Below are positions 39,314 to 43,314 of a stretch of 55,681 nucleotides of DNA, piece by piece. The DNA lies in the NCBI RefSeq assembly GCF_001427785.1, contig NZ_LMHM01000013.1:355377-411057 (forward strand), given 5' to 3'. The DNA comes from Lysobacter sp. Root690 (lineage in GTDB: Bacteria; Pseudomonadota; Gammaproteobacteria; Xanthomonadales; Xanthomonadaceae). Numbering within the stretch: position 1 is the first letter of the stretch; the number at the start of each line of letters is the position of its first letter. The notes under the pieces are model-generated. The model ran no database searches and had not been told where the DNA came from. It saw nothing but the letters and a program-made list of their open reading frames with translations. The position numbers and the translations under genes are program-made.

Positions 39314-39590
39314 GATGATTGCGCCGGGGCTTGCTTGTTCGGACTTTCGCGGTGATCCGCAATTACTTCAGCTCGGCGCAAAGATGATCACCAGACCAAT
39401 GCACCTCCACGCTCTCGCAGTGATCTGCAATCACTCCATCTCGAATCAAAGATGATCGCTCCAGACCATTGCACCTCCGCACTTCCGCAGTGATCTGCTC
39501 CTACTACACCCCGGCTCAAAGATGATCACGCCAAGTCACTGCATTCCCGGACTTTCGTCGTGATCTGCCACTACTACACCCCGGCTCAAA
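39314..39590. repeat. Four imperfect tandem units of 68-70 bases
   Basis: Units begin at 39314, 39383, 39451 and 39521. Each opens with GATGAT followed by a short, degenerate copy of the next gene's start (compare GATGATCGCCCCAGGACATT at 39591). Each then has a TCGCGGTGATC-like or CGCAGTGATCTGC segment and a GGCTCAAA-like end. A fifth, weaker copy may start near 39131. The last unit runs directly into the alpha/beta hydrolase gene at 39592. Confidence 0.8.
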
Positions 39591-39591
39591 G

Positions 39592-40122
39592 ATGATCGCC
39601 CCAGGACATTGCATTCTGTCTCATGGCTTCGAAAGCGGCCCCGACGCGACCAAGGTCACCGCCCTGGCCGAAGCGGCGCAGCGTCATGGCTGGACTCACG
39701 AGCGTCCCGATTACACCGACCTGGACGCCAAACGCGAAGTCAGCGATCTGGGCGATGTCTACGCGCGCATCGAGCGCCTGCTCGGCTTGGCGCGCAAGGC
39801 AGCCGAGCGCGGGCCGGTGGTGCTCGCCGGGTCGAGCCTGGGCGCCTATATTTCCGGCGCGGTGTCGATGCAGGTCCGGCCCGCCGCGCTGTTCCTGATG
39901 GCGCCGCCGATCGCGATGGGCCCGGCGCCCACGCTGCAGGCCGCCGATGTACCGATCAGCATCATTCACGGCTGGGACGATGAACTGATCCCGGCCGCCG
40001 ATGTCGTCGCCTGGGCCCATCCGCGCCGTGCGCGGTTGCTCCTGGTCGACGACAGCCACCGCCTTACGGCGCACGTGCAGGGCAGCGCCGACGCGTTCGC
40101 GCGCCTGCTCGAAACATTGTGA
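39592..40122 (+). CDS. Small alpha/beta hydrolase
   Basis: This 176-residue protein is a compact serine hydrolase. The nucleophile is Ser82 in AGSSLGAY, the acid is in HGWDDE (Asp129-130), and the histidine is in DDSHRL (His156). It lacks a lid domain and a signal peptide, like YqiA-type esterases. The ATG is the first codon of a degenerate repeat unit, and the ribosome-binding site is weak (GGCTCAAAG). It is followed after 13 bases by rlmKL, probably as an operon. Confidence 0.85.
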
Positions 40123-40135
40123 GTACCGCGCAAGC

Positions 40136-42490
40136 ATGAGCAAGTTCTACGCAAGCTGCGGCAAGGGTCTGGAATACCTGTTGGCCGACGAACTGATCGC
40201 GCTGGGCTGCCAGCGCGCGACCGCCGCCACCGCCGGCGTCAACGTCGAAGGCGAACTCGCCGACGCGCAGCGCGCGGTGCTGTGGTCGCGTCTGGCCAGC
40301 CGGGTGTTGTGGCCGATCGCCGAATTCGATTGTCCCGACGAACACGCCCTGTACGCCGGCGTCGCCGCGCTGGATTGGCCCGCGCACATGGAGAGCGTGC
40401 ATACGCTCGCGGTCGACGCGCACGTGTCGGGCGAGGCGATCACCCACGCGCGTTACGCCGCGCAGCGGGTCAAGGACGGCGTGGTCGACGTGATGCGCGC
40501 GCGCACCGGTTCGCGCCCCGACGTCGATACCGATCAGCCCGATCTGCGTTTGAATCTGGTGATCCGCAAGGGCAAGGCGATCGTCTCGATCGACCTGGGC
40601 GGCGGTTCGCTGCACCGTCGCGGCTGGCGCCAGAAACAGGGCGAAGCGCCGCTGAAGGAAAACCTCGCCGCAGCGGTGTTGCTGCGCGGCGGTTGGCCGA
40701 AGGTGTACGCGAACGGCGGCGGGCTGTTCGACCCGATGTGCGGCAGCGGCACCTTGCTGATCGAAGGCGCGCTGATGGCCGCCGACGTTGCGCCGGGTCT
40801 GCTTCGCCACGGCGCCTTGCCGCCGACGCGCTGGCGTGGGTTCGATTTCGCGCGCTGGCGCGTATTGTGCGAACAGGCGCGCGAGCGCGAAGCCGCGGGC
40901 CTGGCCGCGCTGCGTCCGGTGTTCGCCGGCAGCGATATCGATCCGCATGCGATCCGCGCCGCGCGCGACAACGAGATCGAAGCCGGGTTGGCGGGGGTAA
41001 TCGAGTGGAATGTCGCGGCGGTGGAGTCGTTGCAGGTTGCGCCGGCACGGCTTCAGGCCGGGCAAGTTATCGCCGCGCAGTCTGATGTCCGTCATCCCCG
41101 CGAAGGCGGGGATCCAGAGACTTCAGAGTCAAGTCGCGATAAAGCCCTGGATTCCCGCCTTCGCGGGAATGACGCTCTTGCAGAGCCGATCTCTTCAGGG
41201 ACCAGCGCAAGCCCGGATACGAACGCGAAGAGCGATGCGCAGACTCCGGGCCTGGCCGTCTGCAACCCACCCTACGACGCCCGCCTCGCCGCCGATCCCG
41301 CGCTGTACCGCGCGCTCGGCGAAGCGCTCAAGCGCACCGTGCCGAGCTGGCGCGCCAGCCTGCTGTGCGGCGATCCGGCGCTGGCCCAGGCCACGACCCT
41401 GCGCGCCAGCAAGAAGTACCAGATCTTCAACGGCGCGATCGAATGCGCCCTGATCGTGTGCGAGCCGATCGCGCGCATCGGCCACGCCGAACGCAAGGCG
41501 CAGGCCGAAGACGCCGCGCCGCCGCCGCTGAGCGAAGGCGCGCAGATGGTCGCCAACCGACTGCGCAAGAACCTGCGCAAGCTCAAGAACTGGCGCCAGC
41601 GCGAAGCGATCGATTGCTTCCGAGCCTACGACGCCGATCTGCCCGAGTACTCGGCCGCGATCGACGTCTACACCACCGACGAGCCGCAGCCGCGCACCTA
41701 TCTGCACGTGCAGGAATACGCCGCGCCGTCCGATATCCCTGAAGCCGACCAGCGCCGTCGTCTCAACGAATTGCTCGCGGCCGCGCGCGAGGTGTTCGCG
41801 GTGCCGCGCGAGCGGCTGGCGATCAAGACCCGCGCGCGCGGCAAGGGCGGCAGCAAGTACGGCCAGTTCGATCAGCGCGGCGAATTCATCGTCGTGCGCG
41901 AAGGCGCCGCGCGGCTGCGGGTAAACCCGTTCGATTACCTCGATACTGGCCTGTTCCTCGATCATCGGCCGATGCGCCTGCGCATCGCCGAGGAAGCGCG
42001 CGGCCGCCGTTTCCTCAACCTGTTCGGCTACACCGGCGCGGCCACCGTGCAGGCGGCGGTCGGCGGCGCCAGCGAGACCACCACGGTCGATCTGTCGGCC
42101 ACCTACCTGCAGTGGTGTTCGGACAATCTGCGTGAGAACGGCGTGACCGGTTCGCAGCACCGGCTGGCCCAGGCCGACGCGGTGCAGTGGCTGGAAGCCG
42201 ATCGCGGCCGTTACGACCTGATCTTCTGCGATCCGCCGACCTTCTCCAATTCCGCGCGCGCCGACGACTTCGACATCCAGCGCGAACACGTGCGCCTGCT
42301 GCGCGCCGCGGTCGCGCGCCTGGCCGACAACGGCGTGCTGTATTTTTCCAATAATTTCCGTCGGTTCCGTCTGGACGAAGAGGCGATCGCCCAGTTCGCC
42401 CGCTGCGTGGATATCAGCGCGCAGACGATTCCGCCGGATTTCGAACGCGACGCCCGGATCCACCGCTGCTGGCGGCTGGAGCCGCGTTGA
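40136..42490 (+). CDS. rlmL: Bifunctional 23S rRNA methyltransferase RlmKL
   Basis: This protein (784 residues) methylates 23S rRNA at G2445 (m2G) and G2069 (m7G). It has the N-terminal THUMP domain, an RlmL methylase with [17 protein letters not shown] and CNPPYDARL, and the C-terminal RlmK methylase with [18 protein letters not shown] and [10 protein letters not shown]. It is about 80 residues longer than E. coli RlmKL (702). Part of the excess is a repeat-derived insert at residues about 319-346 (HPREGGDP...DSRLRGND) between the methylase core and Asn377 of NPPY. The reading frame is intact. Start [11 protein letters not shown] at 40136. Confidence 0.96.
41091..41173. repeat. Palindromic repeat inside rlmKL
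   Basis: An 83-base element with arms GTCATCCCCGCGAAGGCGGG (left) and CCCGCCTTCGCGGGAATGAC (right), 27 bases each with two differences. Such GTCATTCCCGCGAA-type repeats are widespread in proteobacterial intergenic DNA. Its translation in this frame gives the well-known signature RHPREGGDP and DSRLRGND. Confidence 0.92.
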
Positions 42491-42548
42491 TGGCATCCCC
42501 TTTTCGTCGTAGCAGCCTCGCGCGTGCGCGTTGCTTGGAGCATCGCGC

Positions 42549-43136
42549 ATGAAGTCGCACCGCAAGCCCGGTACCTGGACCTTCTTCCGTCAGTGGCTCA
42601 AGAACCCGTTGCGGGTGGCGGCGGTAGCGCCGTCCAGCGCCGAACTGGCCGCGGCGATGATTTCCGAACTGCCCGACGACGTGAACCGGGTGATCGAACT
42701 CGGCGGCGGCACCGGCGCGATTACCCGCGCCTTGCTTGATGCCGGCATCCGCGACGAAGACCTGCTGGTGCTCGAACTCAACGAAGAATTGCACGCGCAT
42801 CTGCATCTGCGTTTCCCGCAGGTGCCGGTGGTGCTCGGCGACGCGCGCGAGTTGCCGCAGTTGGCGCGCGACGCCGGTTATCTGCGCGCCGGTCGGGCCG
42901 ACGCGATCGTGTCGGGTCTCGGGTTGCTGACAATGCCGCACCCGCTGCAACGCGACATCCTTGGCGCGGCGTTCGAATGCCTGCGCGAGGACGGCGTGTT
43001 AGTGCAGTTCACCTACGGCCCGGCCGCGCCGGTGGCCGATCCGGTCGCGCGTTCGCTGGGGCTGCAGGTGCGGCGCGGTGATTTCGTATTGCGCAACGTG
43101 CCGCCGGCGACGGTGTATGTGTATACGCGGGTGTAG
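42549..43136 (+). CDS. SAM-dependent phospholipid methyltransferase-like protein
   Basis: This 195-residue protein begins with a basic amphipathic helix (TWTFFRQWLKNPLRVAAVAPSS), typical of PmtA-type phospholipid N-methyltransferases. Motif I VIELGGGTGAITRALLDAG and an acidic VLELNEELHAHL follow. It ends in strands of a small methyltransferase fold. It lies in the same direction as rlmKL, 58 bases downstream. Lipid substrate is inferred. Confidence 0.82.
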   Translation: MKSHRKPGTWTFFRQWLKNPLRVAAVAPSSAELAAAMISELPDDVNRVIELGGGTGAITRALLDAGIRDEDLLVLELNEELHAHLHLRFPQVPVVLGDARELPQLARDAGYLRAGRADAIVSGLGLLTMPHPLQRDILGAAFECLREDGVLVQFTYGPAAPVADPVARSLGLQVRRGDFVLRNVPPATVYVYTRV

Positions 43137-43209: not shown

Positions 43210-43314
43210 TCCCTCTCCCGCTTGCGGGAGAGGGGAGGGTGAGGGCGCTTCTGGGCGCTCTGCGCCATCCCGTTTCCCTCACCCCGGCCCTCTCCCGCAA
43301 GCGGGAGAGGGAGA
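43210..43314. repeat. Paired CCCTCTCCCGC palindromic repeat
   Basis: TCCCTCTCCCGCTTGCGGGA (43210 onward) and a second inverted GGCCCTCTCCCGCAAGCGGG (43287 onward) flank a 45-base G-rich core. Such CTCTCCCGC-type units occur singly or as head-to-head pairs in Xanthomonads. It fills the gap 43137-43468, which otherwise holds no gene. Confidence 0.8.

Follow-up and report, generated by a model that had tools for sequence, protein, structure and literature searches.

An in-frame dimer of CGTC-type REPs in rlmKL of Lysobacter sp. Root690, within a loop that appears to have been filled several times in the same frame

The rlmKL gene of Lysobacter sp. Root690 contains an inverted dimer of CGTC-type repetitive extragenic palindromic (REP) sequences that is read in frame and is presumably translated. 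Both the family of the element and this kind of event are known, and what is new is that the same rlmKL loop appears to have been filled several separate times, always in the same frame. We consider it probable that recurrent, tolerated insertions entered a permissive loop and were filtered for one hydrophilic frame. The insertions would then be independent of each other, the protein would be made and working, and the insert would be neutral rather than useful. A preliminary description of this DNA had noticed a palindromic repeat inside the open rlmKL frame. The repeat is real, being an inverted pair of CGTC-type REPs at 41090-41174; that description missed the family of the element and the filling of the same loop in other lineages.

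The window, which is the whole stretch of DNA that was analysed, comprises 55,681 nt of Lysobacter sp. Root690 (GCF_001427785.1, NZ_LMHM01000013.1, positions 355,377-411,057, forward strand). In this window, rlmKL (40136-42490, plus strand) codes for a bifunctional 23S rRNA methyltransferase of 784 aa, and its frame stays open through the insert. The gene was identified by NCBIfam PRK11783.1 (906 bits, cut-off 466), and its product contains the Pfam domains RlmL_1st, THUMP, UPF0020, and Methyltrans_SAM. E. coli RlmKL (3v97, 3v8v) could be aligned with residues 1-299 and 372-781, on either side of the insert, leaving a linker of 72 residues here versus 9 in E. coli. The whole expanded linker (residues 300-371) is encoded at 41033-41248 on the plus strand, and the NPPY motif (residues 377-380; 41264-41275, plus strand) directly follows strand 372-376, with N377, P378, P379, and Y380 invariant in 41 sequences. 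Compared with the usual 46 residues, the linker segment has 65 more; about 28 of these are encoded by the REP element itself and the remainder is other linker sequence. Two further repeats lie near the gene. A tandem array at 39343-39613 (units of about 70 bp, 3.9 copies, 76% matches) extends to the start of ORF 39592-40122, which precedes rlmKL, and a second palindromic repeat of the CCCTCTCCCGC..GCGGGAGAGGG type (43210-43312, 30-nt arms) comes after ORF 42531-43136; its 24-mer pattern, with at most one mismatch, was found at 108 places in the genome and at none in the control.

The element was originally described as an 83-base repeat with 27-base arms at 41091-41173. The 83 bp hold when counted from GTC to GAC, whereas the unit measures 85 bp with its C/G tags, and the inverted arms (41090-41117 and 41147-41174) have 28 nt each, are 93% complementary, and are separated by 29 nt. 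A codon (residue 319, R) begins at position 41090, and CGTCAT, with the CGTC tag, is read both from there and from 41174 on the minus strand. The forward REP arm (41090-41116, plus strand) matches the degenerate consensus at 27/27 positions, is built as ATCCCCGC-GAAG-GCGGGGAT-CCA, with the CGTC tag, an 8-bp stem, a 4-nt loop, and a CCA tail, and reads RHPREGGDP in codon frame 0. The spacer (41117-41147, plus strand) reads 10 residues and the first base of the next codon, and fits the spacer consensus of the same genome. The reverse arm (41148-41174, minus strand) also matches at 27/27 positions on its strand, where it is built as ATTCCCGC-GAAG-GCGGGAAT-CCA, and contributes LDSRLRGND to the protein. 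Each arm is itself a hairpin, the first of the C-G type and the second of the T-A stem type, and RNA of 41090-41174 folds at -59.1 kcal/mol (z -9.3), which was equalled by 0 of 200 shuffles. The core 14-mer CCCGCGAAGGCGGG occurs exactly at two places only in the window, namely the two arms. With two mismatches there were 11 sites versus 13.2 by chance, so that within the window only the exact pair is informative. A comparison of 501 bases (40900-41400) with Rfam gave 10 matches at E <=1, all below the gathering scores and mostly to miRNA families, and these were set aside as generic hairpin matches.

A search of the genome for the same arms had been proposed, and they turned out to be abundant. 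With at most one mismatch, CCCGCGAAGGCGGG was found at 207 + 211 sites (3 + 1 for the reversed control) and the 20-mer ATYCCCGCGAANGCGGGRAT at 167 + 179 sites (0 + 0 for the control). Among the loci fetched from this genome, 37 of 39 distinct dimers have the length of 83 bp, and their conserved spacer gives the unit a direction. A sample of 30 half-sites in their order along the contigs and of 30 dimers selected by similarity, the rlmKL copy being one of these dimers, was scored for coding signature on both sides. It was clear only for the rlmKL copy (score 29, all others at most 14), and a second set chosen by the other frame had the same outcome. By this rough score, the sampled copies in the genome sit outside genes, with the exception of the one in rlmKL. 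Since the score is rough (three true rlmKL copies elsewhere obtained 27, 11, and 8, and a fourth, L319, scored best on its opposite strand), the doubtful loci of the genome were scanned with Pfam. Across nine doubtful loci, eight from this genome and one from genome G073, a domain was detected in L027 only, where IMPDH begins at residue 153 of the reading frame and is preceded by the REP; none was found in the other eight. The G073 locus (L325/L337) had a coding-context score of 11 and no Pfam domain. In six other genomes, 29 of 30 fetched loci were tested, several being two frames of one place. By position, they included the rlmKL copies of G050, G073, G091, and G140, and one further copy with a clear coding signature, in mfd of G091. 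This last locus (L317, minus strand) has an in-frame CGTC-REP dimer, again in the hydrophilic frame, within the gene for the transcription-repair coupling factor (TIGR00580, 839.6 bits, cut-off 800).

The gene was found in 193 of 198 family genomes at E <=1e-100, and linkers were read in 120 genomes (the 20 genus members, the best 30 as loci, and 80 places that were fetched, one of them incomplete). The places were taken by rank, apart from the last few, which were hand-picked, and lower-ranked members are therefore under-sampled. The 217 loci gave 214 complete linkers, 166 of which are distinct, meaning that they differ in the linker or in the 60 residues preceding it. A carrier was defined by a REP half-site of at least 21/27 in the linker, a threshold set after the gap between 21 and 19 was seen; L123, a truncated gene though showing REP peptides, was left out of the count together with L109 and L179. 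On this basis, 21 of the 166 distinct orthologues carry a REP in the loop. The maximum in 498 control segments from elsewhere in the same genes was 20/27, and the best non-carrier linkers reached 19 (L074, uncounted) and then at most 18. As had been predicted, the insert is present in only some relatives: 12 of the 20 genomes of the genus carry it and 8 do not. Nine carriers lie beyond the genus, L066 (L. arvi), L067 (Root494), L068, L071, L073, L075, L153, L176, and L189. Judged by their spacers, L075 and L176 share one insert, so the nine represent eight lineages, with empty relatives. L071 (L. selenitireducens) has three arms, and L075 shows an insert within the insert, a further 60 nt with small inverted repeats of its own inside the first REP arm, the frame being kept.

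The survey also bears on whether the insert is an artefact of assembly or annotation. The window comes from a draft genome of 18 contigs, but the same kind of insert is present in 21 distinct orthologues, including those of single-contig genomes such as G003 and G004, and none of the 20 genus members has a stop codon inside rlmKL. An artefact, including the assembly error that had been named as a possible refutation, is thus extremely improbable. The length of the segment differs between the REP-bearing clade and its outside, where 35 of 35 rows have 46-47 residues. Inside the clade, it ranges from 46 to 139 in 75 REP-less rows (median 50) and from 74 to 142 in the 21 carriers, suggesting that the loop became permissive there. 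Very long linkers at the same place with no detectable REP were seen in L251, L181, L227, and L160, and these are possibly eroded inserts; L251 and L181 score 16, L227 and L160 are outside the best 45 listed, and the control range is not exceeded.

All inserts share one reading. The 20 scored forward arms all begin at a codon boundary in frame 0 (R-H...), a set that does not include the second forward arm of L071, and frame 1, reading LDSRLRGND, is used by each of the 13 scored reverse arms; in L153, forward and reverse arms form one fused hairpin. The common reading is RHxREGGxP...LDSRLRGND. In the 83-bp dimers of the window's own genome, the hydrophilic frame is open in 34 of 37 in orientation A and in 37 of 37 in orientation B, the VIPAKAGIQ frame is open in 35 of 37 and 0 of 37, respectively, and the third frame is open in none. 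Stop codons in the element therefore explain part of the agreement in frame, and the rest may come from the hydrophobic frame being avoided in a loop at the protein surface.

The presence of the insert depended on the number of REPs in the genome. None of 76 genomes below 20 REP sites was a carrier, compared with 20 of 44 at or above this number. By class, carriers were 0/40 (no sites), 0/36 (1-19), 5/16 (20-49), 5/15 (50-99), and 10/13 (at least 100). The Mann-Whitney test, in which related genomes are treated as independent, gave p 3e-10 overall and 4e-5 when the window's genus was excluded. An even spread of REPs would put 0.02 of them in the loop over 120 genomes, or 0.18 if noncoding DNA only is considered, by a rough estimate that takes genomes as 4 Mb with 10% noncoding DNA and the target as 30 nt. 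Compared with 20 carriers and about 9 inferred events, this indicates that the loop has been filled far above an even spread, for which targeting, tolerance of repeated hits, or retention may be responsible. Such an excess might be taken to mean that the insert is useful, as an RNA-contacting or regulatory loop or as an mRNA hairpin that slows translation within the RlmL half, and the very stable hairpin of the window's copy would fit this as well. However, neither the peptide nor the full hairpin is kept: 8 of the 12 genus carriers have no second arm reaching 21, the arms of L036 and L040 have amino-acid changes, and L153 retains one fused hairpin. Close relatives also manage without the insert. 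A useful insert thus seems quite unlikely, and the word 'domesticated', in the sense of useful, finds no support in these results.

The distribution of carriers was examined on a tree of 131 rows with the linker removed, from which 34 REP-negative rows, most of them from Dyella, Rhodanobacter, or Luteibacter, and a single short row were omitted. It is a quick tree with SH-aLRT support only and 34 of its 128 inner branches open, and its makers caution about starred branches in quick trees that contain long rows. The REP label requires 9 changes on it, 7 of which are forced by starred branches. No shuffle out of 500 was as low and shuffled labels averaged 19.8 changes, showing that carriers are clustered, as is expected within a genus. 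An empty root costs 9 changes even when losses count double, while a single gain demands 30 losses, although change counts alone do not discriminate gain from loss. Empty relatives stand beside carriers in the pairs L066/L105, L153/L124, L189/L195, and L067/L168. The direction of the unit also differs. Orientation A was assigned to the window, L032, and L061 (z 18.2, 14.5, and 9.7, against a spacer consensus that includes the window's own copy as 1 of 37), and orientation B to L039 and L040 (z 5.3 and 7.0) and, with weaker signal, to L062, L083, L063, and L041 (z 4.3, 3.9, 3.4, and 3.1). Both orientations thus occur within one genus; none was callable for L033, L035, and L036. A search for the exact insertion site and a target duplication found neither, the empty and filled sister pairs being too diverged.

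These results have to be weighed against a single insertion at the base of the REP-bearing clade, followed by vertical inheritance, many losses, and refreshment of the arms by gene conversion from genomic REPs. One site and one frame throughout would be equally expected from such an old insertion. The forward arm scores 25-27 of 27 in 11 of 12 genus carriers while alignment of the surrounding linker is poor even for L034 and L035, two carriers with 96% identity in the flanks on either side and with a shared odd forward-arm variant ending in GGAAAT; L075 and L176 have one recognisable insert in common. Arm quality shows a non-significant increase with genomic REP number (Spearman 0.52, p 0.08, n 12), and it was therefore rejected as proof of gene conversion. 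The L034/L035 linker looks as if it had been rapidly replaced. Against an ancestral insertion stand the 30 losses it needs versus 9 changes, the two orientations of the unit within one genus, spacers that differ between lineages, and REP-negative linkers that are mostly short, with a segment median of 50 residues versus 46 outside the clade. We therefore regard an ancestral insertion as doubtful, and prefer recurrent insertion. Recombination between species could also have carried inserts.

In an AlphaFold model based on 41 sequences (mean pLDDT 83.6, pTM 0.57), pLDDT falls below 50 at residues 310-366 and elsewhere at 568-580 and 703-708, and the insert is predicted to be disordered, although the low pLDDT may partly result from the few aligned rows that span it. 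Strand 289-293 precedes the insert and strand 372-376 follows it, indicating that it enters before beta-4. It had been described as lying next to the active site, which holds in sequence, as residues 310-366 run towards strand 372-376 and then NPPY. In the fold, Rossmann methyltransferase topology, rather than measured distances, would place it at the sheet edge remote from the active site. The enzyme had also been called essential-type, which is wrong, because E. coli grows without RlmKL: in Table 1 of PMC7056703, growth of the rlmKL knockout is scored as wild type and reporter expression is lower. Single knockouts of such enzymes are reported to have a minor effect (PMC11194073). These mild effects help explain why the insert is tolerated.

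Taken together, recurrent insertion could proceed as follows. The loop between beta-3 and beta-4 of the RlmL half would accept added residues, and CGTC-REP dimers would have reached this loop of about 10 codons on perhaps 8 to 10 separate occasions in REP-rich Lysobacteraceae genomes. Only copies whose total length preserves the frame and which are read in the hydrophilic frame would survive, and translation would turn them into a disordered loop at the protein surface. This peptide would then be eroded into a long variable linker by point changes and further insertions and by losing its second arm. A bolder reading, which we put forward as a tentative possibility, is that the loop is a true acceptor hotspot, to which CGTC REPs are steered or in which they are retained by benefit; about eight or more colonisations, all in one frame but in either orientation, would have converted a nearly fixed turn into a disordered, rapidly evolving linker made of mobile DNA. 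Intragenic REPs have mostly been catalogued gene by gene. A site that looks repeatedly filled, that is empty in relatives, and whose inserts differ in orientation and in degree of decay amounts to a natural experiment. It can reveal which places CGTC REPs enter, how the reading frame and the position in a loop select among them, at what rate they erode, and whether protein linkers lengthen by a ratchet of mobile palindromes, and it offers places to seek the agent that moves CGTC REPs.

In the openly licensed PMC literature searched, no account was found of one loop being filled repeatedly in a single frame, nor anything for rlmL together with repetitive extragenic palindromic. No paper found for Lysobacter with the same term was evidently about this, the string TCATTCCCGCGAA matched only in work on a Neisseria gonorrhoeae pilus factor, and intragenic CGTC REP elements were found only in PMC3733652 (Di Nocera, De Gregorio, Rocco 2013), the main text of which does not contain the name Lysobacter. 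That paper describes CGTC REPs as well as their dimers and copies that lie in frame inside genes.

Several known systems resemble the rlmKL insert. As in the REPIN/RAYT system (Bertels and Rainey 2011, PMC3116915), two REPs form one unit as an inverted doublet. RAYT genes are, however, flanked by the same REP, whereas the four Y1_Tnp (PF01797) hits in the present genome have no CGTC arm in their 3-kb loci (L140-L143), and a RAYT was rejected as mobiliser. Rickettsia palindromic elements, with which the insert had aptly been compared, also lie in frame inside conserved protein genes and keep the frame open, though in other organisms, the nearest named relatives here being Lysobacter. The analogy is nearly literal, since PMC3733652 places RPE-4 and RPE-6 in the CGTC superfamily and assigns RPE-6 and RPE-4 of R. 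conorii to CGTC-1 and CGTC-4, respectively. Among the genomes covered there, R. conorii has the most intragenic CGTC repeats, whereas the copies sampled from the present genome include no clearly intragenic one besides that in rlmKL.

The element matches CGTC-1 as described in the same paper (PMC3733652), a recognition based on features rather than on a model. The tag of CGTC-1 is CGTC (or TGTC/CCTC), and the window's element has it; also shared are the 8-bp stem whose first two positions are A-T pairs, the 4-nt loop, the CCA tail, dimers whose spacer is conserved, high copy number, the presence of some copies within genes, and no flanking transposase, judged here by Y1 transposases (PF01797) only. 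Many intragenic REPs are reported there in DNA synthesis and repair genes, and the nearest one-site case is that of the recB REPs, which occupy about the same place in X. campestris and X. oryzae. Here, by contrast, one loop of one gene is filled in many lineages and in one frame.
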